This document shows, one piece after another, positions 15,944 to 56,554 of a stretch of 64,000 nt of DNA (positions are counted from its first letter, which is position 1; every line of letters starts with the position of its first letter). Under the pieces are notes generated by a model, which was not told the DNA's origin, did no database searches, and saw only the letters and a list, made by a program, of their open reading frames with translations. The translations under genes and the position numbers were made by a program. This stretch comes from Geoglobus acetivorans (GTDB taxonomy: Archaea > Halobacteriota > Archaeoglobi > Archaeoglobales > Archaeoglobaceae). The DNA is taken from positions 1,488,001 to 1,552,000 of the forward strand of contig NZ_CP087714.1 of the NCBI RefSeq assembly GCF_039641995.1, written 5' to 3'.

Positions 15944-16271
15944 ACCTGCTTCACCCCAGCACGTGAGTTTAAAAAAGGGTTTCGGAGGTGGGATTGAGAA
16001 GGTTGCATTGTGGCTGAGTGCATGGTTGACATTCTTGTTTATTTGTGAGTGATACCTCCCCCGGATGAGTTTGCTTATCGCCAAGCCAAAGACGGTGCAG
16101 TCAGGATCACCCCTAAGTGGGATTCGCGAGATCAAGATTTGTTTTCCACAAGGCAGCATTTCACCTCGCTATGGATTTTTGAACTCTGCCACGCAATTCT
16201 GCATCTTCGGTAAAAATCCTGCATTAATTTTCAGTAAAAATAATTATAAATTCTCCCGTCAAGTTAGGTTC
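15944..16271. other. 328-bp intergenic stretch, promoters only
   Basis: Apart from the tRNA-Arg(GCG) promoter at its left and a TATA box (TTATAAAT, 16244-16251) about 25 bp before the acyl-CoA dehydrogenase ATG, I see no gene. The dehydrogenase frame stays open upstream to 16065, but those residues do not resemble the family. Confidence 0.5.
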
Positions 16272-17573
16272 ATGAAGTTTCTCGACCTCGACGAACTCAG
16301 CGAGGAGGACAGGCTTCTGAAAGAAGAGGTGCACCGCTTTGCTCTGGAGGTGATGAGGCCAGCGTCCATAGAACTGGACAGAATGGAACCGGAGGAGAGG
16401 ATCAAACCCGGCTCCCCGTACTTCAAGGTTTTCGGGGAGATGAAGAGGCTCGGTTACCACAGGATAACAATCCCGGCGGAGATGGGCGGTGTGGATCTAA
16501 CTCCCCTCCAGAGGTACATGATAATGGAAGAGCTCGGGTGGGGGAGCCTGGGACTCGCAACAGCAATAGGCGTTGATCAGATTCCGTTTGCATGTGCTGC
16601 ACTCTTCGGCCCTCCTGAAATTTACGATGAGCTTGTGGTTCCCTGGCTTGAGGATGACAGGGGGAAATACCACGGATGCTGGGGCGTGACCGAGCCTGAG
16701 CACGGCAGTGACTACCTTATCGCTCTGAGAGAGGATGAGGATCTCGTGAGAAGGTTTGGAAAGGGCAATGTTGTCGCTGAAAAGGATGGAGACGAGTGGA
16801 TAATCTCGGGCCAGAAGTCTGCATGGGTCTCTTCAGCTCCCGTAGCCACTCACTGCGGGTTGCATGCCCAGCTAAAGGATGGAAAAACCCTGCTCGACGG
16901 GCTGTTCTGCATCGTGCCCCTCGATGTGGATGGGGTGAGGAAGGGTAAGCCCGCGGACATGCTCGGAATGAGAGACGACCCGCAGGGAGAGCTTTTCTTT
17001 GACAGCGTGAGAATTCCTGAAAGCCACGTTGTTGTTGCCCCAGGCTTCTTTTACGGGGTGTTTCTTGACCAGCTTCTCTGCCTGACGAGCTGCGGGATGG
17101 GTGCTTTCGCGGTAGGTCTTGCGAGAGCTGCGTTTGAGGAGGCTTTGAGCTACGCGAGGGAGAGGGTGCAGGGGGGTGTGCCGCTCATCAGGCACAAGAA
17201 CATCAGGCTGAAGCTCTACGAGATGTTCGAGAAGATAGAGACCGCAAGGTACTACGTTCGCAAGGTCACCGAATACACCCACCGCAGGATAATAGACGAG
17301 AGGACCGCCGATGCATCTCCAAGACATGCGAGGGCGGCGCAGATATATGCCAAGAGGATTGCATTTGAGGTGGCCAACGATGCATTGCAGATTTTTGGCG
17401 CCTCTGGGCTCAGCAGAGAGTTCATTGTCGAGAAGCTGTTCAGAGATGCAAGAGCCCTGCAGATCGAGGACGGGACTGTGGAGGTTCTGAGCCTTGAAGC
17501 AGGAGAAGATGTTGTTGAGAACTACGAGAAGGACTACTACGATGTTGAGAGAGTTTCGAGATGGTATGAGTAG
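16272..17573 (+). CDS. acyl-CoA dehydrogenase
   Basis: 433 residues with the three acyl-CoA dehydrogenase domains: N-terminal helices (MEELGWGSLG...), the beta domain with GCWGVTEPEHGSD and the substrate/flavin segment WISGQKSAWVS, and the C-terminal helical domain ending in IFGASGLSREFIVEKLFRD-type FAD contacts. Oxidises an acyl-CoA to the enoyl-CoA with FAD, passing electrons to ETF. ATG 16272 lies 25 bp after a TATA box, so the gene is probably leaderless; upstream in-frame codons are unlikely to be translated. Followed after 13 bp by an acetoacetate-decarboxylase-like gene, suggesting one operon. Substrate not predictable. Confidence 0.88.
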   Translation: MKFLDLDELSEEDRLLKEEVHRFALEVMRPASIELDRMEPEERIKPGSPYFKVFGEMKRLGYHRITIPAEMGGVDLTPLQRYMIMEELGWGSLGLATAIGVDQIPFACAALFGPPEIYDELVVPWLEDDRGKYHGCWGVTEPEHGSDYLIALREDEDLVRRFGKGNVVAEKDGDEWIISGQKSAWVSSAPVATHCGLHAQLKDGKTLLDGLFCIVPLDVDGVRKGKPADMLGMRDDPQGELFFDSVRIPESHVVVAPGFFYGVFLDQLLCLTSCGMGAFAVGLARAAFEEALSYARERVQGGVPLIRHKNIRLKLYEMFEKIETARYYVRKVTEYTHRRIIDERTADASPRHARAAQIYAKRIAFEVANDALQIFGASGLSREFIVEKLFRDARALQIEDGTVEVLSLEAGEDVVENYEKDYYDVERVSRWYE

Positions 17574-17586
17574 GAGGTGGTGGAAT

Positions 17587-18333
17587 ATGCTGAGGGGAAT
17601 TCCGTTTGATTCTCCGCTTTACGAGGTGGATGAGGAGAGGGGGATAGAGTACAGAAACTGTGAAGCAATAACTGCCTTTTTCACAATAAAGGGTGACGTG
17701 AGCGAGATCCTGCCCGAAGGCCTGAAGCCCTACAGCGACCCGCCGCAGGGAGGGGTATGGATTTCCCACTACTCGTTCAGCACCCTCGGGGAGTACCGGG
17801 AGTTCATAAGCACGATTCAGGTTGAGGATGAGAGTGGTGACATGGGCTATTACATCCCGTACATTTACGTCACCAACGACGCTGCAATGGCTGCTGGCAG
17901 GGAGATAGCCGGAGCTCCGAAGAAGCTGGCGAGGATAGATCTGAGGAAGAGCTATGATGTCGTTCAGGGCATCCTCGAGAGACCTGAGGGAACGAGACTC
18001 GTCACATTTACGATGAAACCTTCGGCCAGAGCCACAGGAGGGCTTATTGACCTGGTTCTGCCCAAGCCCACGTACCTGTACTCCGTCAGGCACCTCCCGC
18101 CGATAAACGGGAAGGGCGGTGTGACCCAGCTTGTGAAGTGGTATGCGGACATAGACTTTCACACCGATCCAAATGGGGAGAAGGTGGTTTTCGCCGGAAC
18201 TGCGAGTGTGAGCTACGATGTGCCCTCTTCAATTGATCCAGTGCATAAAATCGAGATAGATGAGGTGCTGCTCGCCATATACTTCCAGTTCGACATGAAG
18301 CTGGGGTTTATGGACATAGTGAGGGACTACTGA
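17587..18333 (+). CDS. acetoacetate decarboxylase family protein
   Basis: 248 residues. AGREIAGAPKKLARI (K112/K113) corresponds to the lysine pair of acetoacetate decarboxylase, in which the first lysine forms the Schiff base and the second lowers its pKa. The hydrophobic barrel region around it is also family-like. True decarboxylase activity is not assured, since relatives include aldolases and dehydratases. GGAGGTGG six bases before ATG 17587 fixes the start. It follows an acyl-CoA dehydrogenase, so the pair may act on a branched or beta-keto acyl compound. Confidence 0.75.
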   Translation: MLRGIPFDSPLYEVDEERGIEYRNCEAITAFFTIKGDVSEILPEGLKPYSDPPQGGVWISHYSFSTLGEYREFISTIQVEDESGDMGYYIPYIYVTNDAAMAAGREIAGAPKKLARIDLRKSYDVVQGILERPEGTRLVTFTMKPSARATGGLIDLVLPKPTYLYSVRHLPPINGKGGVTQLVKWYADIDFHTDPNGEKVVFAGTASVSYDVPSSIDPVHKIEIDEVLLAIYFQFDMKLGFMDIVRDY

Positions 18334-18403
18334 TCTGATATGCCCTGATAAACTCTGGAAACCTTCATTTCATCAATCCCGGCATGAGTCATGGGGGAGG
18401 AGT

Positions 18404-18943
18404 ATGAGGCGTGTGCTTCTGCTTGTGGCTCTCCTCGCAGTATTGCTCTCCGGATGCTCGACTGAAGAAAAGAAAGCAGAGGAGAATCTCATCGTTAAAA
18501 CCGTATTTAACGAGGGGAGTGAAATTCCCAGAAAATACACGTGTGATGGGTTGAACACAAACCCGTCTCTGCACATCGGTGGGCTCAAGAGCGAAGTTAA
18601 GAGCCTGGCGGTAATAGTGGACGATCCGGACGCCCCTTCCGGTGTGTTCACCCACTGGATTGCCTGGAACATCCCTCCTGTGGGTGAAATACCCGATGAA
18701 ATCCCCAGAGAGGGTGTGGTCAGTGCCCCCGTAAAAATGGTTCAGGGCGTCAATGATTTTGGAAGGCTCGGTTATGATGGTCCGTGCCCCCCTGAAGGTC
18801 AGAAGCACCGCTATTTCTTCAGAGTTTATGCTCTCGACACCACGCTCGATCTGAATCCCGGGGCGAGCAGGGAGGAGCTGGAAAACGCCATGAAGGGTCA
18901 CGTGATTCAGTACGGGGAAATCGTCGGGGTTTACAGGAGATGA
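18404..18943 (+). CDS. PEBP/YbhB family lipoprotein
   Basis: 179 residues. An N-terminal signal peptide ends in the lipobox LLSGC (Cys at about residue 18), so the protein is probably lipid-anchored outside the membrane. The mature part is a phosphatidylethanolamine-binding/Raf-kinase-inhibitor-like fold: DDPDAPSG with THW, GP(C)PPEGQKHRYFFRVYALD and a terminal GEIVGVY strand. These proteins bind anionic ligands; activity in archaea is unknown. GGGGGAGG precedes the ATG by four bases. Confidence 0.8.
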   Translation: MRRVLLLVALLAVLLSGCSTEEKKAEENLIVKTVFNEGSEIPRKYTCDGLNTNPSLHIGGLKSEVKSLAVIVDDPDAPSGVFTHWIAWNIPPVGEIPDEIPREGVVSAPVKMVQGVNDFGRLGYDGPCPPEGQKHRYFFRVYALDTTLDLNPGASREELENAMKGHVIQYGEIVGVYRR

Positions 18944-26120: not shown

Positions 26121-27479
26121 TCAGTATCTCTTCAGTCTGACTTCGAAAATGGCGCCACTTGGGGTATTGTCGTACACCTTTATCTCTCCTCCCAGAAGTT
26201 CAACAACCTTTTTTGCAATAAACAACCCTATTCCTGTCCCTCCAACCGTCGAAAAACCTTCCTCGAAGATTTTGTCTTTTATCTCATCTGGTATGCCTTT
26301 TCCGTTGTCTATTATTCTGAAAACGCCATATCTCCCGTTAACGAAAGTTTCGATCGTTATTTTAATATCATCGCTGTTACTGTGCATAACTGCGTTTCTC
26401 AGCAGATTGTCTATCACCGATTTTATTGATTCATTTGCCTTTACAAAAACATTTGTAAGTGAATACTGAATATCTGCAAGGTCTTCATAGCCCTTGGTTA
26501 TTTCTCTTATATAGTCTGAGATGTTTATGGTGTAAGTTTCACCGATTGCCTCTTCTATGGCTTTCGACTCTTTTATAAGTGATTCAATTCTATCGAGCTT
26601 TTTCAGAGCACTCTCTTTGAGTTTTTCTTCACCGAGTTCAAATGCCGCCCTGATAACTGTAATATCGTTTAGGATGTCATGTCTGAGGATTTTATTTACA
26701 AGCGCCAGATACTCGTTCTTCTTTTTAAGCATTTCCGTGAGCCTGTGAAGGTCTGTGGTATCGACGAGAATGCTTGCAACGGCGGGTTTCCCGCGATAAT
26801 TTATTCTTGAGGGCCTCCCGGTCACCCAGTATACGTTTCCGTCTTTTGTGAGAATTCTCCAGGAATATGTTTCAACACCCCTTTTGCCCTCAAGTCGCTC
26901 CCTATATCTTCTTTCGACCATCTCTCTGTCTTCAGGATGGACAAGTTCGAGAGGGTGTATTTTGGAAAGTTCTTCTCGAGTGTATCCTGTTAAGTTCAAT
27001 AGGCTTTGATTAACGTAAGCAACTTTATCATCTTGGAGTATGTATGCGGGATTTGGGGAATCGTCAACCAGAACCCGAAATAGTTCATTATTTTCTTTAA
27101 GCCTATTTTCAAGATGTTTTTTCCGTGTTATGTCTATCCAGTTCCCTAAAGCCAGTATTTCATCGTCACATTCTATCGGGAGAACGTAGCCCCACACCCA
27201 TCTGACCTTTCCGTCTTTTCTGATGTATCTGCACTCATAGTTAGTTGCTTCACCATTGAATACTTTGAGAACTTCGCTTTTAATTAAGCTTAAATCATCC
27301 GGGTGTACGAGGTCATATAGTGATTTTTTCATCAACTCTTCTTTTGTGAATTTAGTGGCCCTCTCCACTATTTCATTGACATATATTAGTTTGAAGTCAG
27401 TGTCATGAATGTATATTCCAGCTAGCGATTTATTTACTATTGTTTTCCAGAACTTTTCGTCGAATTTATCACAGTCCAT
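26121..27479 (-). CDS. PAS-PAS sensor histidine kinase
   Basis: 452 residues without membrane helices, so a cytoplasmic sensor. Two PAS domains (about residues 10-120 and 133-245; the first with FKLIYVNEI, the second with DKVAYVNQSL) are followed by the phosphoacceptor H267 in LRHDILND, the N box NAVMHSN and the G boxes DNGKGIPD and GGTGIGLF. TATA (TTTATATTTAC, about 27501-27511) lies 25-30 bp before ATG 27479, so it is leaderless. Its likely partner is the divergent response regulator at 27658; it lies just upstream of AOR in the same direction. Confidence 0.85.
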   Translation of the reverse strand: MDCDKFDEKFWKTIVNKSLAGIYIHDTDFKLIYVNEIVERATKFTKEELMKKSLYDLVHPDDLSLIKSEVLKVFNGEATNYECRYIRKDGKVRWVWGYVLPIECDDEILALGNWIDITRKKHLENRLKENNELFRVLVDDSPNPAYILQDDKVAYVNQSLLNLTGYTREELSKIHPLELVHPEDREMVERRYRERLEGKRGVETYSWRILTKDGNVYWVTGRPSRINYRGKPAVASILVDTTDLHRLTEMLKKKNEYLALVNKILRHDILNDITVIRAAFELGEEKLKESALKKLDRIESLIKESKAIEEAIGETYTINISDYIREITKGYEDLADIQYSLTNVFVKANESIKSVIDNLLRNAVMHSNSDDIKITIETFVNGRYGVFRIIDNGKGIPDEIKDKIFEEGFSTVGGTGIGLFIAKKVVELLGGEIKVYDNTPSGAIFEVRLKRY

Positions 27480-27657
27480 CTGTAATTATTTATTTACTTG
27501 GTAAATATAAAATTAACGTCGGACGATAAAATGGCGCTTCAGTCACTCGGCTGTCTATACAGGTGGCCATGTTAGTTGACAAAGCCAAAAATTGGTTCAC
27601 AAAAATTAGACCGCAATAAATTTATAAAGCGTATCCAATAAGAGAACGGGGGTGGAT

Positions 27658-28005
27658 ATGAAAATCCTGATTGTCGATGATGACATGACCGTTCGGGAAC
27701 TCCTCAGGGTAATTCTGAAGGATTACACAACATTTGAGGCAGATGATGGTGAGAAAGCCGTCAGGATGTATCAGGAGCTGAAACCAGACATCGTGCTGAT
27801 GGATCTATTCATGCCAAAAATGGACGGTATAGAGGCAACCAGGAAAATTCTTGAGATTGATCCTGAGGCAGTTGTCATCGGTGTAACTGCTTTTCATTCC
27901 AACAAGGGAGATGAATTGATGAAAGCTGGAGCCAAGGAGATAATTTCAAAGCCCTTCACGAGAAAGTGGATTGTGGAAGCGATTTCCAGGTATGCAAAGG
28001 TGTAG
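27658..28005 (+). CDS. response regulator receiver protein
   Basis: 115 residues consisting of a CheY-like receiver domain alone: acidic D7/D8/D9, phosphoacceptor D49 (LMDLFMP), T/S in GVTAFHS and the lysine in SKPFT. No output domain, so it probably acts by protein contact, as in many archaeal two-component systems. GGGGGTGG precedes ATG 27658 by a few bases. Divergent from the PAS kinase, which is its probable kinase. Confidence 0.88.
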   Translation: MKILIVDDDMTVRELLRVILKDYTTFEADDGEKAVRMYQELKPDIVLMDLFMPKMDGIEATRKILEIDPEAVVIGVTAFHSNKGDELMKAGAKEIISKPFTRKWIVEAISRYAKV

Positions 28006-28056: not shown

Positions 28057-28809
28057 TCACTGGATTCCTGCGCTGATGCTGTACTTTGCAAGAACAAGTC
28101 TGTCGAAGTACATTGTAATGTTAAGTGTGCTGCCCGAGAGATTTGTCTGCAGGACCGTGTTGTTTGTGTATCCCCTCAGGTCATCGAAGTAACTCTTCCA
28201 TGCGTCGGCATAGCTTGAGTTTATGCTCATATATAGGTATCCGCTCTGGTTGAAGAGGTTTATTTCAGCGGAATTCAGTTCAAACATCAGTGTTACCGAT
28301 CCTTCACCTCCTGTAGACCCATTCCCTCTGATTGATGTAATTGCCACGAAAACGATTGTTTCGTTATTCACGTTCTTTTTGTAGATGAATATTCTGGGAT
28401 TTGACATTATTGTGGTTTTGTTGAATGACTTTACCCACACACCACCGTTTTCAAAGGCCATTATGTAGTTCGGGTAGCGGTATTCCACACCTCCAAGTAT
28501 GTCTGTTGATTCAAAAGCCGTTGAATTATTTATGATGACTCTGGTATTCAGGTTTGCATCTGATGACACCTGCAATGTGCCACCGCTCAGTACGATTCTA
28601 ACCTCTTTTTTGGTGCTTTTTCCATATACAACGCTTTCGACTGCATCCTGTATTTTTCTGAATCCCTGGAGCATGCTCTCGAATCTCACATCTTCTTTGG
28701 CGTCATTTACCATTGAATTTACGTGGATGTAAATCGTCGTGATAGCTGAGATGGCTATTCCGAATATTATGATGTATCCCACAATTTCAGAAACACCTTT
28801 GCTGTTCAT
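28057..28809 (-). CDS. pilin-like secreted protein (last gene of the pilin operon)
   Basis: 250 residues. KGVSEIVGY at residues 4-12 is a class III (prepilin) signal start, followed by a 20-residue hydrophobic helix. The remainder is rich in Asn, Ser, Thr and Val with several N-x-S/T sites, typical of an extracellular beta domain. It shares a C-terminal pattern with the gene just upstream (GGVW..., STGGEGSVTLMF..., DRLVLAKYS), so the two are paralogues. Overlaps it by 4 nt (ATGA). Probably an S-layer-exposed or pilus subunit. Confidence 0.72.
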   Translation of the reverse strand: MNSKGVSEIVGYIIIFGIAISAITTIYIHVNSMVNDAKEDVRFESMLQGFRKIQDAVESVVYGKSTKKEVRIVLSGGTLQVSSDANLNTRVIINNSTAFESTDILGGVEYRYPNYIMAFENGGVWVKSFNKTTIMSNPRIFIYKKNVNNETIVFVAITSIRGNGSTGGEGSVTLMFELNSAEINLFNQSGYLYMSINSSYADAWKSYFDDLRGYTNNTVLQTNLSGSTLNITMYFDRLVLAKYSISAGIQ

Positions 28810-29510
28810 GTGAACCTCACATCCACAACGTATTTTGTCAACACCAGCCTGTTGAATGGTATGGTTATCTCAATCTCGTCACCATCCACGCTCACGTTAC
28901 CCAGATTTGACAGGAACCTAGTCCAGGCGTTGACGTATTTTGTCTTCAATTCCATTGTTAGATTTCCGGATTCGTTGAAAACATGTGTCTCTGTTGTGTT
29001 GAATTTCAGAACTACGTTTATGATTCCTCCGCCCAGACCACCACCTGCTGATCCCGTGCCGACTATCTTGTACAACGCCACGCTCAGGTTGCCGTTTTCC
29101 AGATACATCTTTGGATGCGAGACGATAGCGTCTCCAAGGACTCCACCGTTCTCTATTGCCATTGAAAAACCGGTGCTGGAATACTCTATGGATTTGAGGT
29201 CATCGCTCATCTGGAACACCACTCCGCTCGAGTTCCTGACCGTGATTGTTATGCGTGTCCCGTCGGTTATTGACAGGGATCCACCAGAGAGTGCGAATTT
29301 TGTGCTTGTAACGGGAAAGACATCTGCTGATACCTTGGATATCTGTTCGTTCAGATATACAAGCTGAGAAACAGCGTTTCTCTCCCTGATGACCTTCTGA
29401 TGGGTGTCAATTACGGGCATTCCGTACAGGAGCAGGATGGAGATTGTTATGACCATCATAGCAATAATCAGTATTGCATCCAGGACATCCGAAACGCCAT
29501 CATCCCTCAT
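28806..29510 (-). CDS. pilin-like secreted protein, paralogue of the next gene
   Basis: 234 residues. The start MRDDGVSDVLDAILII combines a charged tip with a DGVS cleavage-like site and a hydrophobic helix. The beta-rich body ends with FNRLVLTKYVVDV, matching FDRLVLAKYSIS of the neighbour. ATG 29510 overlaps the stop of the VWA gene (ATGA), and a longer upstream frame has no signal-like sequence. No Cys. Predicted to be processed by a prepilin peptidase and assembled with its neighbours. Confidence 0.72.
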   Translation of the reverse strand: MRDDGVSDVLDAILIIAMMVITISILLLYGMPVIDTHQKVIRERNAVSQLVYLNEQISKVSADVFPVTSTKFALSGGSLSITDGTRITITVRNSSGVVFQMSDDLKSIEYSSTGFSMAIENGGVLGDAIVSHPKMYLENGNLSVALYKIVGTGSAGGGLGGGIINVVLKFNTTETHVFNESGNLTMELKTKYVNAWTRFLSNLGNVSVDGDEIEITIPFNRLVLTKYVVDVRFT

Positions 29511-31906
29511 TTTAACACAACCTTTTCCGGACTTATTCTCGTTACGTTCAGGTCTGGGGCAGGCAGTTTGATAGTCGTAGTATTCATTCCTGTAAACGGC
29601 CACGGTAGATACGTCACGTTTGATAGACCAAAAACGTTCGTCTTTATCAGCCCTTCCTTGGCAGGCACAACCTCAAAGCTCGCAGTCCAGGTCTCATTTA
29701 TTCTTATGCTCGTCAGGTTCCACTGAATTACTGTCTGGTTGCCCCAAGTGCTGATGTTGGCGCCAGGTGGAGGCTGAGAAAGGGTAACATTGGACGTGAG
29801 CACGTCTGTGATGGTTATGTTCGTAGCAGCCTTCTCCTTAAGCTCCTTTGCAATCTGTTCGTATATGTTCTCAAGCTCTTCTGACGTTGCTGCAAAGAAG
29901 TAGTAGTCAGGAGATGTGGCTATCTGCTGTAGGAGTGTTGCGTTGGCATCGCTGCCGAATCCAATTGTGTAAATCAGTATGGATTCGTTGCTCACAAGTG
30001 TCTGCTTGGTTATTTCTGCTTCGTTCAGGGCTTCCTGAATTGCAAGGGTTTCAGAAGCCACACCGTCGGACGTTATGGTGGGGTTACCGTCTGAGAGTAT
30101 AATCATGACGGGTATATTTCCGGGGGTGGTGTTTGCAACAAGTTCCTCTCTTGCGGCCTTTATGCCTAAAGCCATAGGAGTCCCTCCGTAAGCCCTTAAA
30201 CTGTCAATACTGGAGTTTGCAGCGTATGTATCATTTGTTAGGCTTTGGATAACTTCTCCTTTCGGATAATATGGACTATATGCAGAGGTCGTATTGAAAT
30301 AGGCAACGCCTACTTGGTCACTACTCTTTATGAGTCCATTGAACGTTTTTGCCGCAATTTTAACTGCGTCAATCTTGGCGATGTATGAATCAATCTGGAA
30401 ATCTTGGGATCCGTATGGGAAATCGGCCACAACGTAGATAGTATATTGTCCTGGCTGGGCGCTCGAATCCTCATAATATTCGTCATAGGATGACCAGTAG
30501 GGACCAACCAAAGACCCATCTGGCTCTCTTATCCATGTGTGGAGTTCTTTGCTCCCGTTAATCGGCGTAACTTTGATTTTCAGGTCATCAACCTCATCGG
30601 GTACATTTATGCTGAATGTTTTCGGATTTGCAGCCAGTACAAAGTTATATGAGGCAATGAGATACCAGCTCCCCCTACTTCTTTTCCAGACCTCTACCGT
30701 TACAGTATCGCTGTCTTTTGGATAGTCTGCAACAACGCTGATGGTCCAGTTACCCTCAACCGGATTGTTCACTTTGTACTTTTCTACGTAACTAGATATA
30801 TATTGGGCTCTGGCAAAGTCTCCGTCTGGAGATTTAACCCAGAGGTCCACATCCTCGCTGTTAGAATGGGCATGTATTTCGAGTCTGTCAAATGAGCTGT
30901 CTACATACACGCTGCCTTCCCATTTTGAAGGCGAAACATTCCCGTTCATAGATATGTATGGCGTATAACCAATGTATCTGTTCCAGTAAGGGAAATAATC
31001 TGGATCCATACTTCCCGAAACGTCAATAACATGCATCACGCTCACGTTTCTCGCCTGCTCTATAATTCCACCACCCCGGAGGTAAATCACGATTTGAACG
31101 GGGTTGCCGGGTTCGGTGATTTCGGGAATGATGTATTTGGTGGCAAAGAGGAATGGATTGGGTGTCTGGTTAAGGACTTTAATTGTGATATTGCTAGTAT
31201 CTGAGTATCCATAACTATCCCATACCGTAAGGGTTGCCGTATATGTGCCTCCGGCAGAATACGAGTACTCAACTAAGGACTGAGACGGATTGTTCGGATC
31301 ATACTTCGCTTCGTAACTGCTCCCGTCACCAAAATCCCACCTGAACCACAGATCGCCCTCTCCGGTGGAGAGAGTCATATCAAAGGTAACGTTGCTGCCA
31401 ACTTCCACAGTTGTTGGATACGCCAGCGCGACCGCTGTGGGCATCAGGTGGGTGTATTTGGAATATTCAATTTCGTGAACTGGTGTTATGCTGAAGGTTG
31501 ATCCTACCGGTATGACCTTTAATGCTAAGTTATTTATCGGCACGTATTGTGTCTTTCCCGCCCTCTCTGATGAGATTTTGAGGACATATTCTCCTCCCAC
31601 CTGTGTGAACTCGGCTTTGAAATCATAATCTCCCACGGTGTATGGCATGAATACTTTTGCCTTTATGTAACCGTTTTCTGGGGCGATCAGGGAAATGTCC
31701 GTGAGTTTCACGGCAATCTGGTTTCCAACGTCTTGGAACTGATTGTCCATTGCTGTGGAAATGGGTGCCTTTCCAAGAAGGTCGTTGAATTGTAGTGCTA
31801 TGAATGAGAAAAATATCATGAGAATTATCGATAGGATGAGGTATTCAACTAGGAATGACACTCCTTTTTCCGGGTTACGTGAGTCGGATCGTGATCGTAT
31901 CCTCAT
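29507..31906 (-). CDS. PKD/VWA-domain prepilin-like surface protein
   Basis: 799 residues. EKGVSFLVEYLILS at residues 13-26 is a class III signal with a hydrophobic helix to residue 40. A PKD domain follows (about 157-245; WDFGDG at 190-195). The VWA domain starts with MIDAS DVSGSM at 295-300 but resumes only at about residue 512 (helix VKIAAKTF), with T576 and SDG 605-607 as further MIDAS residues. The gap holds two repeats of about 101 residues (DLWVKSPDG at 354-362 and HTWIREPDG at 456-464; VVADYP and VVADFP), similar to PPC-type beta domains. The C-terminal 100 residues are beta-rich. Likely an adhesin at the tip of a pilus or on the cell surface. Confidence 0.75.
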   Translation of the reverse strand: MRIRSRSDSRNPEKGVSFLVEYLILSIILMIFFSFIALQFNDLLGKAPISTAMDNQFQDVGNQIAVKLTDISLIAPENGYIKAKVFMPYTVGDYDFKAEFTQVGGEYVLKISSERAGKTQYVPINNLALKVIPVGSTFSITPVHEIEYSKYTHLMPTAVALAYPTTVEVGSNVTFDMTLSTGEGDLWFRWDFGDGSSYEAKYDPNNPSQSLVEYSYSAGGTYTATLTVWDSYGYSDTSNITIKVLNQTPNPFLFATKYIIPEITEPGNPVQIVIYLRGGGIIEQARNVSVMHVIDVSGSMDPDYFPYWNRYIGYTPYISMNGNVSPSKWEGSVYVDSSFDRLEIHAHSNSEDVDLWVKSPDGDFARAQYISSYVEKYKVNNPVEGNWTISVVADYPKDSDTVTVEVWKRSRGSWYLIASYNFVLAANPKTFSINVPDEVDDLKIKVTPINGSKELHTWIREPDGSLVGPYWSSYDEYYEDSSAQPGQYTIYVVADFPYGSQDFQIDSYIAKIDAVKIAAKTFNGLIKSSDQVGVAYFNTTSAYSPYYPKGEVIQSLTNDTYAANSSIDSLRAYGGTPMALGIKAAREELVANTTPGNIPVMIILSDGNPTITSDGVASETLAIQEALNEAEITKQTLVSNESILIYTIGFGSDANATLLQQIATSPDYYFFAATSEELENIYEQIAKELKEKAATNITITDVLTSNVTLSQPPPGANISTWGNQTVIQWNLTSIRINETWTASFEVVPAKEGLIKTNVFGLSNVTYLPWPFTGMNTTTIKLPAPDLNVTRISPEKVVLK

Positions 31907-32288
31907 ATTCTACCTCCGTGTTGCTGAAAATAATTTTAACCGTGAATGATGTGATAGATTCGCTCCCTCCTGAAAAGCCTTTCTTGATATCGTATACATC
32001 GATGCTTGCGTAGGCTCCGTGCAGGGCATACAGGGCGGTTATCTGTCTGTCAAGCTCATTGGCTCGCTGAAGGAAGGAAGAAGGATCGTTCGCATATTCT
32101 GTCAGCTCTTCCACTGCAATTTTTTTAAGGAGCCTGATATCGTTTTTGGGGAAATTCAGCTGGCTTATTGACGACTCTGTCCCTGCCAGCAAATTCTGTG
32201 AATAGACGAAGGAAAGGCCTACCAGCAGTATGGAGATCAGTAACCCCATGGTTATTATCAGCTGACCTCTCTCGTTCATTTCTCTCAT
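31875..32288 (-). CDS. prepilin-like protein with RGQ signal
   Basis: 137 residues. NERGQLIITMGLLIS is a classical RGQ prepilin site with a hydrophobic helix (to about residue 28). The rest is helical and then beta (ASIDVYDIKKGF). ATG 32288 lies eight bases after GGAGG; the frame overlaps the VWA gene by 32 nt. A minor-pilin-like subunit by position. Confidence 0.7.
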   Translation of the reverse strand: MREMNERGQLIITMGLLISILLVGLSFVYSQNLLAGTESSISQLNFPKNDIRLLKKIAVEELTEYANDPSSFLQRANELDRQITALYALHGAYASIDVYDIKKGFSGGSESITSFTVKIIFSNTEVEYEDTITIRLT

Positions 32289-32290
32289 GA

Positions 32291-32824
32291 TCACACCCTC
32301 CAAAGGGTTAGTCTAACCTCGAACAGCACTGGGGTGTTACTGTCTGTCCCCTCCACATCGGTTGAATTGAACTTGAAGGGCGAGTCGTCGACAAACTCTC
32401 CATTTTTTATGACGACGTAGGTTGAAGCTGTTACGGTGGTTGAGGTGGGAATCTTATTCGTTATGTTGTATACCTGGATTTTACCGGTGGTGTGATTCAG
32501 ATAGTATACTTGGAGATGAAAGTCGATATAGTCCGGCAGGAGTTTTTTAAGGCTGTTGATGAGATCATCCGCCCTGTATGTGTTGTTGATGTGCTTTAGA
32601 GCATACTGGAGCGTGTCTTTTGTGCCGGATTCGTTGTTGAGGACCATAAGGGCATCATCTCCATACTGTTTAATCTGGACGAAAACGACCTCATCTGATA
32701 TGGGTGAAATTATCATCGTACTCTGGAAGAGGAAATAGGCCACACTAAGGATGAGAACTGCCGCTATTATGCTCTCCAGTGTCATCATCTGTCCTTTACC
32801 ACACCGCAACAACGAGCTTGGCAA
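32291..32824 (-). CDS. prepilin-like protein with KGQ signal
   Basis: 177 residues from a TTG start. GKGQMMTLESIIAAVLI is a canonical KGQ prepilin motif with E+5-like glutamate. The body has N-glycosylation-like sites and beta propensity. The start codon lies inside the upstream gene (29-nt overlap), and other TTG codons within eight codons are possible. Minor pilin by sequence style; family not otherwise recognised. Confidence 0.68.
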   Translation of the reverse strand: MPSSLLRCGKGQMMTLESIIAAVLILSVAYFLFQSTMIISPISDEVVFVQIKQYGDDALMVLNNESGTKDTLQYALKHINNTYRADDLINSLKKLLPDYIDFHLQVYYLNHTTGKIQVYNITNKIPTSTTVTASTYVVIKNGEFVDDSPFKFNSTDVEGTDSNTPVLFEVRLTLWRV

Positions 32825-33698
32825 CTATCCTCCCTCCTATGTATTCACCAGCGTTGGTCGAGATCACATACCCCCTCACATTGTGCACCTGCACATCCAC
32901 ATTGACAGTCCCGCTGTACTGGTTTATCTCGCCTGTCAGGTCAAACGTGTCTATCGTTTCGTTTCCCGTAACGTCTATAACTCTCACTCTATTTATGTCG
33001 ACTCTCATCCAGGGCTCGGTGGCAGACTGATTGTCGTTCCTACCGGTGATGACGATTACGAACGAACCAACAGGAGTATCAACGTTAAATTCGTAATTGA
33101 CCGTGTTTGGCGTGTCAACCTTGCTGGAGATGTTAGACACGCTTGTGGTATTCTCAAAGGCTATTATTCTCTCGTATTTTGCCACATTCTTCCAGTCAGG
33201 TATAGGGTCGCCAATCAAGAGCATCGGCTGACCGCCGTACGTGGAATACCTGAGGTTGGATGAATTGCTCGACAGAAGTTGAAGGGATATGTTAAATCCA
33301 AATACTCTGTCTGGAGTTTCCAGCCCCAGAGCTTTTCTGATTCCGTCCTTCCCAGCCGAAAGATAAAGGTTCTTCAGTGCATCTATCTTCTCCGGGTTGA
33401 GCACATTTACCTGAGATCCCATCAATCCCGGCCTGACCTCTACGTTCTGCTGAGTGTAGTACTTTTCCCAGTCGGTTCCGTTGACACTTCCGTTGCTCCA
33501 GTATCCGGGATCCTCAACAAGCAGGGCGGAAATCCTGTAAGTCAGCGGGTAGAGATAGATCTCGCTTCTCTCAGAGGCGAAGATTGCCGGGATGTACTGG
33601 ATGATGAATATAAAACTCAGGAGAAAAATTGTCAGACCTATGAGAATATCGAGACTGAGCTTGCCCTCGTCATTTCTCATTTTTCCACTGCTTTTCAT
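32796..33698 (-). CDS. prepilin-like secreted protein, first gene of operon
   Basis: 300 residues. The likely mature start is near GKLSLDILIGLTIFLL, a class III-like signal, then a long extracellular Asn/Ser/Thr-rich domain with several N-x-S/T sites and many beta strands. TATA (GAATATAAAC, about 33706-33715 on the minus strand) places the transcription start near 33684; an internal ATG at 33680 would then be a leaderless start, as an alternative to ATG 33698. Heads the six-gene pilin-like operon. Confidence 0.7.
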   Translation of the reverse strand: MKSSGKMRNDEGKLSLDILIGLTIFLLSFIFIIQYIPAIFASERSEIYLYPLTYRISALLVEDPGYWSNGSVNGTDWEKYYTQQNVEVRPGLMGSQVNVLNPEKIDALKNLYLSAGKDGIRKALGLETPDRVFGFNISLQLLSSNSSNLRYSTYGGQPMLLIGDPIPDWKNVAKYERIIAFENTTSVSNISSKVDTPNTVNYEFNVDTPVGSFVIVITGRNDNQSATEPWMRVDINRVRVIDVTGNETIDTFDLTGEINQYSGTVNVDVQVHNVRGYVISTNAGEYIGGRIVAKLVVAVW

Positions 33699-53118: not shown

Positions 53119-54663
53119 GTGAGGTTGAAACTCTCTTTTCGAAAAAAGGAAAAGGAAGAACCTGCCAGACCCGAAGCTGAGGTAAAGCTGGAAGAAGTCA
53201 AATCAGAAGAAGAGCCGGAATACGTTCTTGTAGAGGAATATTGGATAGAAGAACCGTTCTCCAAGATTCAAATAAGGTTTAATAAAGAGACCCAGGAACA
53301 TGTGTATTATGTGGTTGTTCCTAAGCTTGATAATCACCTGTTCTCCGTGTATTATGTTCTGAAAAATACCGTTGTGGAATATCTTGAAAGCGATGTGGAG
53401 CAGGTGGATGACAGAGTAAAGCATCTTGAAGAAATGTCGAGAAAGCTGCTGAAAGAGCTTGGAATAGACCTTGAGGAGGAGGACTTTCAGAAGATATTTT
53501 ACCACCTCAAGTCCGACTTCATTGAATACGGCCCCATCACCCCCCTCATGAATGACCGCTTGATAGAGGACATCTCCTGCAACGGCTACAACAAACCCCT
53601 CTACATCTACCACCGCAACTACCAGAACATCAGAACAAACATCACCTTCAGTGAAGATGAGCTGGACATGTTCGTCATAAAGCTTGCCCAGATGTCGGGC
53701 AAGCACATAAGCATAGCCGAACCCCTGCTCGACGCATCCCTTCCAGACGGATCCAGAATCCAGATGACCTTGGCTAAAGAGGTAACAGACCACGGCTCCA
53801 CATTCACCATAAGAAAGTTCAGAGATGAACCTGTAACCCCTGTCGACCTCATCGCCTGGGGAACCTTCAGCATAGAGCAGATGGCCTACCTCTGGCTCTG
53901 CATAGAGAACAAGAGGTCCCTCATCTTCGCAGGAGGAACCGCAAGCGGAAAAACCACATCCATGAACGCCGTCTCAATCTTCATCCCGAGAAGCTCAAAG
54001 ATAGTAACCATTGAGGACACAAGAGAGATAATGCTCCCCCACGAGAACTGGATTCCCGCAGTCACAAGGGAAACGGGAAAGGTCGTGGACATGTATGATC
54101 TGCTCAGAGCAGCCTTGAGACAGAGACCCGAATACATAATAGTCGGAGAAGTCAGGGGAAAGGAGGCATTAACCCTCTTCCAGGCAATGTCCACGGGCCA
54201 CACCACCTACTCAACACTCCATGCTGACTCCGTCAATGGCGTCATCCACAGGCTTGAAAACCCGCCCATAAACGTCCCCAGAGCCATGATCGAAGCTTTG
54301 GACATAGTCAGCATCCAGGCCCAGGTCTTCATGGGCAAGAAGAGGGTGAGAAGAAACCTGGAGATAGCAGAGATCATAGGCGTTGACCCCCACACAAAGA
54401 TCATGAGAACCACAACAGTCTTCACCTGGGACTCAAGCAAGGACGAGCACGTAATGGTCGGCAGCTCAAAAGCCCTCGAAGAACTCAGAATCATGAGGAA
54501 CTGGTCGAGAAAGGAACTCGAACAGGAGCTGAAGAGAAGGGAAGCAGTCCTCAAATACATGCTCGACAAAAACATAAGAGACTTTAAGGAAGTTGCCGGA
54601 ATAATCCAGACCTATCAGATAGATCCGGATAAGGTGGTGAGCGAATTTGGTATTCAGATCTGA
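53119..54663 (+). CDS. GspE/TadA-type ATPase for pilus or secretion
   Basis: 514 residues. The N-terminal ~100 residues are charged, then GPITPLMNDRLIEDISCNG precedes the ATPase core: Walker A GGTASGKTT near residue 278, Asp box TIEDTREI, Walker B-type VGEVRG, His box TGHTTYSTLHAD. A type II/IV secretion ATPase that powers pilus or archaellum-like assembly. GTG 53119 follows a TATA-like region (near 53087), so it is likely leaderless. Residues about 130-485 use almost only C-ending codons, unlike both ends of the gene. Confidence 0.9.
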   Translation: MRLKLSFRKKEKEEPARPEAEVKLEEVKSEEEPEYVLVEEYWIEEPFSKIQIRFNKETQEHVYYVVVPKLDNHLFSVYYVLKNTVVEYLESDVEQVDDRVKHLEEMSRKLLKELGIDLEEEDFQKIFYHLKSDFIEYGPITPLMNDRLIEDISCNGYNKPLYIYHRNYQNIRTNITFSEDELDMFVIKLAQMSGKHISIAEPLLDASLPDGSRIQMTLAKEVTDHGSTFTIRKFRDEPVTPVDLIAWGTFSIEQMAYLWLCIENKRSLIFAGGTASGKTTSMNAVSIFIPRSSKIVTIEDTREIMLPHENWIPAVTRETGKVVDMYDLLRAALRQRPEYIIVGEVRGKEALTLFQAMSTGHTTYSTLHADSVNGVIHRLENPPINVPRAMIEALDIVSIQAQVFMGKKRVRRNLEIAEIIGVDPHTKIMRTTTVFTWDSSKDEHVMVGSSKALEELRIMRNWSRKELEQELKRREAVLKYMLDKNIRDFKEVAGIIQTYQIDPDKVVSEFGIQI

Positions 54664-56554
54664 GAATAGCTTTACCAAACTTGCGGACAGGTTCTTTGGA
54701 GACAGGGCGAGAAGAAGGCTTAGTGATTACTATGAGCTGGGGCAGAAGCTTCAGCAGGCAATGATAAACATTCCACCGGATGTGTATGTTGCGACTCAAA
54801 TGCTGTTCTCGATTGCTCTGGCAGCATTTGGCCTGATCCTCGGTGCAATCGTTGCGATAATTGTTTACCTCTTCGTTGAAATCCCGACCTTTGACATCTA
54901 TTTTCCGGAACCTTTCCTGTCCTTCTGGCTGGCATACAGAAAGGTCTTCATAAGCCTGTTCCTCGCAGTGTTCCTCGGAGTTCTGTTCTTCATGATCGGC
55001 CAGTTCATATTTGCCATCTATCCGGGATATGTTGCCAGCGACAGGAAGAGCAAGATCGACAGACTCATGCCCAATGCTGTGATGTTCATGTACTCCCTAA
55101 GCTCGGGTGGCATGCCGCTCATTCAGATATTCAAATCTATCGCCAGCTACGAGGATGTTTACAGTGAGCTTGCGAAGGAGTTCTCGAGGATTATTCTGGA
55201 AATCGAAGAGCTTGGTCATGACCTTGTAACAACTCTGACAAAGGCGGTTGAGCTGACACCATCAAAAAATCTTGCAGACCTTCTTCAGGGTTTGATCACC
55301 ATCATTGAGAGCGGAGGGGATTTTACCAGCTATTTCAGAGAGAGGTCTGACTACTATCTTGAAATGGCGAGACAGGATCAGAAAAGCTTTCTCGAATTCC
55401 TCAGCCTGATGGGTGAGAGCTACATAACTGCGTTTGTAGCGGGGCCGCTCTTCCTTATCATCATCCAGACGGTGATGGCCGTCATGGGTGAAAGCGATGT
55501 TACGCTCCTCTATGCTGTTGTGTACATGATTATACCGGTTGGTGCGTTTTTCTTTGCTTTCATAATAAAACTCCTCACACCTGTGGAGTCTGGAAAGGCT
55601 CCGGTGATTCAGGAGAAGCATGTTCTCAGGAGAGAGATTGATGAGGATGTGATGAAGAAGTGGAACAGCTGGAAAATGAGGAAGAGGCTCAATCCGAAAG
55701 AGCTGTTTATTGAAAACCCTCCGGCTGTGTTTTTGATCTCTATCCCTCTTGCAGTGGCGTTCGCCCTGTTCGGGATAATGCAGTACACCTTCTCTCCAAC
55801 CATCGACTGGTTCTTTCTGGTTGATGACAACATCTTCATCTCGATTGTAATTGCTCTGCTCCCCTATGCTGTGGTTTATCAGATCAACAAAAGGAGAACC
55901 GGGATGGTTCTGAAATTCACGCCCGTTTTTCTGAACAGGATAGCTTCAATGAATGAAAGTGGTATGAATATCACGAGGGCAATAAGGACACTTGCGAAAA
56001 CGGACACCACACCGTTGAGGAAGGAGATAGAGAAGATAAACAGAGATCTGGAGTGGAACATCAGCCTCGTTGATGCCCTGATCAGGTTTGCGAACAGACT
56101 CAGAACATTTGAACTCACGAGAACGACCATTTTGCTTGTTGAATCTCTGAGGAGCACACCCAACGTCACCGAGATCCTCAGAATTTCGGCAAAGGATGCG
56201 AGCAATGCAGAGCTTCTCAGGAGAGAGAGGATAAAGAACATGTCGATGTACGTTATGATCATCTACATCAGTTTCTTCGTTTTCATTGGAATAGTGTACA
56301 TAATCTCCACTACCTTCCTGTCCGTCCTTGCCGAAAGCACTTCAAAGGTGGCTGCGGCGGGAGGAGGATTCATGTCAATGGGGAGCATTGATGAGGAGTT
56401 TTACAAGGGAATCTTTATGCATGCCGCAGTCTTTCAGGGCTTATTCGCCGGACTGGTTGCAGGAGTGATGGGTGAGGGTGATTTCTCCTCGGGCGTCAAG
56501 CACTCACTGATCATGCTGATCTTTGCCTATGTGCTTTTCACCGTCTTCATTTAA
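54647..56554 (+). CDS. TadC/GspF-type membrane assembly protein (double domain)
   Basis: 635 residues with two T2SSF-type repeats: helices near residues 45-75 and 90-120, the cytoplasmic helical region with MYSLSSGGMPLIQIFKSIA, membrane segments, then a second half repeating MNESGMNITRAIRTLAK. Such proteins form the membrane platform with the GspE ATPase. TTG 54647 overlaps the ATPase stop by 17 nt, with GGTGAG upstream. Its 3' end overlaps the EamA gene by 51 bp in opposite orientation. Prepilin genes are not here; see 28.0-33.7 kb. Confidence 0.87.
   Translation: MVFRSENSFTKLADRFFGDRARRRLSDYYELGQKLQQAMINIPPDVYVATQMLFSIALAAFGLILGAIVAIIVYLFVEIPTFDIYFPEPFLSFWLAYRKVFISLFLAVFLGVLFFMIGQFIFAIYPGYVASDRKSKIDRLMPNAVMFMYSLSSGGMPLIQIFKSIASYEDVYSELAKEFSRIILEIEELGHDLVTTLTKAVELTPSKNLADLLQGLITIIESGGDFTSYFRERSDYYLEMARQDQKSFLEFLSLMGESYITAFVAGPLFLIIIQTVMAVMGESDVTLLYAVVYMIIPVGAFFFAFIIKLLTPVESGKAPVIQEKHVLRREIDEDVMKKWNSWKMRKRLNPKELFIENPPAVFLISIPLAVAFALFGIMQYTFSPTIDWFFLVDDNIFISIVIALLPYAVVYQINKRRTGMVLKFTPVFLNRIASMNESGMNITRAIRTLAKTDTTPLRKEIEKINRDLEWNISLVDALIRFANRLRTFELTRTTILLVESLRSTPNVTEILRISAKDASNAELLRRERIKNMSMYVMIIYISFFVFIGIVYIISTTFLSVLAESTSKVAAAGGGFMSMGSIDEEFYKGIFMHAAVFQGLFAGLVAGVMGEGDFSSGVKHSLIMLIFAYVLFTVFI

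Follow-up and report, generated by a model that had tools for sequence, protein, structure and literature searches.

The closest described system to the locus reported here is the PilB4-type euryarchaeal pilus of Clade 2, typified by the PilB4 locus of Haloferax volcanii and described by Makarova et al. 2016 (PMC4858521); in these archaea machinery encoded in trans is normal, and ATPase/TadC modules and pilin sets swap partners. Modular pilins, in which a functional module is grafted onto a small pilin, have been surveyed in bacteria, and Streptococcus sanguinis PilB is a bimodular minor pilin with a functional metal ion-dependent adhesion site (MIDAS) that has been proposed as a tip adhesin (PMC8179133). 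No description of an archaeal modular pilin with a VWA domain was found in the literature searched. The present study concerns a 64,000-nucleotide stretch (hereafter the window) of Geoglobus acetivorans, from a genus of heat-loving, probably iron-breathing archaea, whose genome is a single contig of 1,903,522 bases to which all genome positions in kb refer. Within the window, an operon of six prepilin-like genes at 28057-33698 is read here, with a probability of about 0.72, as encoding the minor pilins, probably a tip complex, of a PilB4-type euryarchaeal type IV pilus, in which gene 4 is an adhesive modular pilin. The genes are as follows, with a slash marking the putative cleavage site.

32796..33698, minus strand: gene 1 (P0006), 300 aa, DUF7287 pilin-like; variant signal EG/KLSLDILIGLTIF; PF23958 at 32 bits (cut-off 27)
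32291..32824, minus strand: gene 2 (P0005), 177 aa, TTG start, DUF7288 pilin-like; signal KG/QMMTLESIIAAVL; PF23959 at 62 bits
31875..32288, minus strand: gene 3 (P0004), 137 aa, DUF7261-like, pilin-like; signal RG/QLIITMGLL; no sequon
29507..31906, minus strand: gene 4 (P0003), 799 aa, modular pilin with a DUF7266-type pilin module, PKD, VWA (Pfam) and a DUF11-like end
28806..29510, minus strand: gene 5 (P0002), 234 aa, DUF7289 pilin-like; signal DG/VSDVLDAILIIAMM; PF23960 at 59 bits
28057..28809, minus strand: gene 6 (P0001), 250 aa, DUF7289 pilin-like; signal KG/VSEIVGYIIIFG; PF23960 at 80 bits

The six minus-strand open reading frames (ORFs) were confirmed at the positions originally given, and are densely packed. 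The original prediction of end-to-start overlap holds for genes 1 and 2 (29 bp), 3 and 4 (32 bp), and 4 and 5 as well as 5 and 6 (4 bp each, ATGA), but genes 2 and 3 lie 2 bp apart if gene 3 begins at its ATG, and overlap only with an upstream TTG start. Gene 2 begins at TTG 32824, a start used likewise in a relative (L008), and gene 5 most likely begins at ATG 29510 rather than in a longer GTG form. Long plus-strand ORFs overlapping the operon were rejected as genes, being antisense to conserved ones. An NCBIfam search of the operon proteins returned nothing useful, and a promoter and terminator scan found no more than chance with models that are bacterial and unsuited to archaea.

Processing signals provide the first line of evidence for the proposed identity. 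A FlaFind-like test, combining a class III motif with a hydrophobic stretch, was passed by five of the six operon proteins, whereas among 137 other genes of the same genome 6 passed, two of which look like archaellins; because so few other genes pass, five positives in a row are far beyond chance. Class III signals had been predicted for all six proteins, and are strict in five: KG/QMMTLE (P0005), RG/QLIITM (P0004), KG/VSFLVE (P0003), DG/VSDVLD (P0002) and KG/VSEIVG (P0001). The signal of P0006 (EG/KLSLD) falls outside the strict motif, with orthologues keeping the pattern [GA][KRQ]LS[LI]D. Gly or Ala occupies the putative -1 site in all six proteins and in 13/14, 16/17, 15/15, 16/17, 14/17 and 17/18 orthologues of genes 1 to 6, respectively. 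With five textbook signals and one conserved variant, the set is, as judged from sequence, one of prepilin-like proteins. The predicted richness in Asn, Ser and Thr was found throughout (23-27% in all six proteins versus a mean of 14%), while only five show an excess of N-glycosylation sequons and P0004 has none. All six genes are under strong purifying selection, with ratios of nonsynonymous to synonymous change (dN/dS) of 0.04-0.09 against the next species, rough values because synonymous sites are near saturation.

Profile comparisons and structure prediction agree with this assignment. Gene 3 scores 16.5 bits to PF23922 (DUF7261), under the cut-off, and its position and family profile are conserved across loci. 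At their N-terminal ends, DUF7266 and DUF7289 align to one another at an hhalign probability of 95%, and with the N-terminus of the genome's own PilA-type pilin at 91% and 93%, respectively; DUF7287 and DUF7288 align at 96%. The AlphaFold2 model of P0001 (predicted local distance difference test, pLDDT, 83) has one long N-terminal helix (residues 3-61) followed by the strands of a beta domain, so that gene 6 is predicted to be lollipop-shaped, on the general plan of a pilin. A DUF7266 profile searched against the PDB produced a single insignificant hit, the Pilin_N protein 8fj5 (E 0.26), and P0001 scores 11 bits against Pilin_N (PF07790), below its 25.2-bit cut-off.

The distinctive member of the operon is gene 4, and its recognisable parts are these.

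31442..31861, minus strand: pilin module, residues ~16-155, homologous to stand-alone ~145-residue DUF7266 pilins (best hmmsearch independent E-value ~1e-33)
31175..31441, minus strand: PKD domain, residues 156-244 (PF18911 at 50 bits, PF00801 at 48 bits)
29837..31042, minus strand: VWA domain, residues ~289-690 (PF00092 at 50 bits)

The combination of several small pilins with one giant VWA/PKD member was thus correctly anticipated and is borne out by Pfam matches, signals and homology. The VWA domain is split by a beta-rich insert (~303-510) that separates the first MIDAS element from the second and contains a weak PPC match, and the DUF11-like C-terminal end is recognised by PF01345 at significance in the orthologue of locus L048. 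All five MIDAS residues (D295-x-S297-x-S299, T576 and D606) are invariant in 15/15 orthologues of 790-970 residues, and this invariance suggests that the VWA domain is capable of functional, metal-dependent binding. Stand-alone DUF7266 homologues of 130-180 residues occupy the same cassette position elsewhere and align to residues ~1-140 of gene 4 only; homology shows gene 4 to be a small pilin of the DUF7266 type extended by grafted PKD and VWA domains. Across the 295 genomes sampled from the phylum, only Archaeoglobales were found to have ORFs that combine the pilin module with a VWA part. In genome G167 a VWA domain is carried on a DUF7261 pilin instead (L119:7436-9712, minus strand), apparently an independent graft onto a different cassette member, and DUF7261-position proteins of Ferroglobus-like loci reach 787-907 residues, some with Ig-like domains; large modules have therefore been grafted onto cassette pilins more than once. 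Large VWA or VWA-like ORFs also occur near bare-pilin cassettes (L110:12173-15949 and 15989-18667; L108:135-2189), as if the VWA part were separately encoded there.

Comparison across relatives shows that the five-family cassette is spread across Halobacteriota, with DUF7288 present in 194 of the 295 genomes. Nineteen loci, from Archaeoglobaceae and a sister family, have the order DUF7287, DUF7288, DUF7261, VWA protein, DUF7289, DUF7289 (a contig edge truncates one of them, and gene 3 went unrecognised in another), while six other Archaeoglobales loci (L049, L050, L115, L124, L125 and L126) have a bare DUF7266 pilin instead of the VWA protein. In the 29 loci outside Archaeoglobales position 4 is a bare pilin wherever it was recognised. 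The graft can consequently be placed by comparison, since most relatives have a bare ~145-residue pilin where most Archaeoglobales have a PKD-VWA protein. Genome G234 of the sister family has two cassettes (L115 and L116), one of the bare-DUF7266 type with a 907-aa protein at the DUF7261 position and the other of the PKD-VWA type.

The arrangement had been thought unlike that of known adhesion pilus operons, a view contradicted by gene neighbourhoods: PilB and TadC adjoin the cassette, often with overlapping genes, in 12 of the 29 loci outside Archaeoglobales (L095, L097, L098, L099, L100, L106, L107, L109, L112, L114, L117 and L134) and in five loci within the order (L048, L049, L058, L124 and L125). 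By type, the latter represent 3/6 bare-pilin and 2/19 VWA-type loci. Each genome has a handful of PilB genes, and we estimate the chance of encountering one in a 20-kb stretch at only a few percent. In haloarchaeal loci DUF7287 is the first pilin-like gene after TadC; a TadC-DUF7287 fusion, considered for very long ORFs in L097 and L100, was rejected, TadC being a separate ORF in another frame. The size range and duplication of DUF7289 fit arCOG02911, the shared minor pilin of PilB4-type systems.

In the host genome itself, the original prediction that no ATPase or platform protein lies in the operon is correct as regards the cassette, but an ATPase and a platform protein do occur in the window, ~20 kb from the operon.

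53119..54663, plus strand: PilB3-like assembly ATPase (PF00437 at 131 bits, PF23989 PilB3_C at 41 bits); its orthologue adjoins the cassette in L049
54647..56554, plus strand: TadC/PilC-type platform protein paired with the window ATPase (PF00482, two stretches, 122 bits)

The genome was found to encode five strong PilB-type ATPases, at window 53119-54663 and at 810, 1092, 1127 and 1855 kb, with a TadC partner for the window, 810-kb and 1092-kb copies and none for the 1127-kb copy. The 1855-kb ATPase, near two archaellin-like genes, is likely the archaellum ATPase, and this probable archaellum locus lies apart from the operon. One prepilin peptidase (genome 195764-196438) was detected, as was one clear PilA-type pilin. 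In L048 the ATPase that adjoins the VWA-type cassette is closest to the 810-kb copy (69% identity), and in L049 the one next to the bare cassette is most similar to the window and 1127-kb copies (73%). Assignment of a cognate ATPase by phylogeny was dropped, as the PilB type next to the cassette varies from species to species, and the joint occurrence of the VWA cassette with the 810-kb ATPase type is suggestive only. The PilB genes of the window (53119-54663) and of L041:8625-10193 (genome ~1127 kb) differ by ~0.06 changes per site, to be read either as a recent duplication or as an orphan ATPase. In genome G023 a relative of the 810-kb ATPase (G023:C1:1322526-1324085) has one in-frame TGA, and that genome is also without a VWA-type cassette. 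A second modular pilin of 758 aa, with a Pilin_N-like start, Big_1 and DUF2341, is encoded at L043:6789-9065 (minus strand; genome ~1089-1092 kb), divergently from a PilB-TadC pair; DUF2341 has been linked to PilY-type tip adhesins by Makarova et al. (PMC4858521).

Taking these observations together, we infer cleavage, assembly, tip position and adhesion of the operon proteins along the following lines. The detected peptidase would cut each precursor after Gly or Ala, as the conserved motif indicates, and a PilB-TadC pair encoded elsewhere would assemble the pilins, the candidates being the 810-kb pair, whose relative adjoins the VWA-type cassette in L048, and the window pair at 53119-56554. 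Gene 4, shown by homology to be a small DUF7266-type pilin with PKD and VWA grafted onto it, may sit at the tip owing to its bulk, where its intact MIDAS would bind surfaces, minerals or neighbouring cells. The predicted surface fibre with an adhesive part is plausible on homology and the intact MIDAS, and gene 4 is a good candidate for the cell's grip on surfaces.

Several points weigh against this reconstruction. The tip position of gene 4 is argued solely by analogy with bacterial proteins; the cassette in the host genome has no linked ATPase and its cognate motor is not fixed; and two different PilB types adjoin cassettes in related species. A Foldseek search gave no meaningful solved-structure match for gene 6, a DUF7289 profile search of the PDB gave nothing significant, and the structure model of gene 4, built from a two-sequence alignment, was of unusable quality (pLDDT 40). 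The choice of motor is indirect because only 2/19 VWA-type loci are linked to an ATPase; an unlinked motor fits the published exchange of partners between ATPase/TadC modules and pilin sets (PMC4858521).

Among the alternatives, the one that survives best, while still rather unlikely, is that one of genes 1-6 encodes a major pilin and the operon builds an adhesive filament of its own, separate from the cell's PilA-type pili. PilB4-type systems have been argued to possess their own major pilin, arCOG03926, and to be unlikely to depend on PilA (Makarova et al., PMC4858521), and the two cassettes of the sister genome G234, with and without the VWA protein, are in keeping with such a filament. Conversely, arCOG03926 could not be mapped onto any of the six genes, none of which resembles by sequence an abundant small major pilin, a PilA-type pilin exists elsewhere in the genome, and archaeal ATPase/TadC modules share pilin sets (PMC4858521).

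A more specific proposal concerns the filaments of Geoglobus. Numerous curled filaments of G. ahangari bind Fe(III) oxides; their genes are unassigned, and other candidates have been listed (PMC4600277). The operon is present in the G. ahangari genome (L046, about 1276546-1281982) and represents a testable candidate for these curled mineral-binding filaments. Operon-bearing relatives also include genomes that we take to be those of sulfate-reducing Archaeoglobus species, so iron reducers are not its only carriers, and the filament link is offered as a hypothesis. That the operon encodes a distinct VWA-tipped adhesive fibre of Archaeoglobales, forming in Geoglobus the curled appendages that hold Fe(III) oxide during direct-contact iron respiration, is a long shot.

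Two further explanations are slightly more doubtful. The VWA pilin may be chiefly a force or surface sensor that signals attachment, like the proposed role of Caulobacter CpaL, possibly linked to a PAS-domain histidine kinase (26121-27479, minus strand) and a CheY-type receiver-only regulator (27652-28005, plus strand) that directly adjoin the operon. ORFs of similar size flank the operon in the close relative L045, but are missing beside the cassette in most other relatives, and for this reason the association is probably accidental. No signalling partner is apparent. To much the same low degree, the operon may encode a short pseudopilus or a membrane-held, TadG-like surface complex for secretion or anchoring, and not a long fibre. 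The cassette contains no certain major pilin, and for VWA proteins such as bacterial TadG the proposed role is that of a membrane anchor for pili; set against this, the PilB/TadC partners are of pilus type and there is no linked gene for a secreted substrate. The wholly new surface organelle originally predicted is very improbable. In its favour, the PKD-VWA fusion was not found described in the literature searched; against it, conserved families, gene order and PilB/TadC linkage place the operon in a described system, its cassette matching the PilB4-type euryarchaeal pilin set (PMC4858521). The homologues did not prove to be plain secreted enzymes, so the refutation originally proposed on that ground does not apply.

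Four known systems invite comparison. The haloarchaeal PilA adhesion pilins (Pilin_N, PF07790) share with DUF7266 and DUF7289 an N-terminal signal and helix that match by profile, but differ in their globular domains, the operon proteins being encoded in a multi-gene cassette with P0001 below the Pilin_N cut-off. Caulobacter CpaL (PMC12607857) likewise combines a minor pilin with VWA and is predicted to share the tip with other minor pilins, but belongs to a bacterial Tad system with a proposed sensory role. S. sanguinis PilB (PMC8179133) has the same succession of a small pilin module and a VWA domain with an intact MIDAS, but is bacterial; gene 4 is built on another pilin family and has in addition a PKD domain and a VWA insert. 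The PilB4-type pilus (PMC4858521) shares with the cassette the presence of several distinct pilins with class III signals in one operon beside PilB-TadC, probably a duplication-prone minor pilin of ~250-550 aa, and both DUF7288 and DUF7289 in H. volcanii, and the cassette-adjacent ATPase ORFs of haloarchaea (694-1377 aa) fit the extra domains of HVO_1160. It differs in that ATPase and TadC are unlinked in the host genome, and gene 4, unlike its counterparts in the haloarchaeal cassettes sampled, carries PKD and VWA. The fibre is thus of a known kind, a type IV pilus, and its special part is the PKD-VWA module of gene 4.
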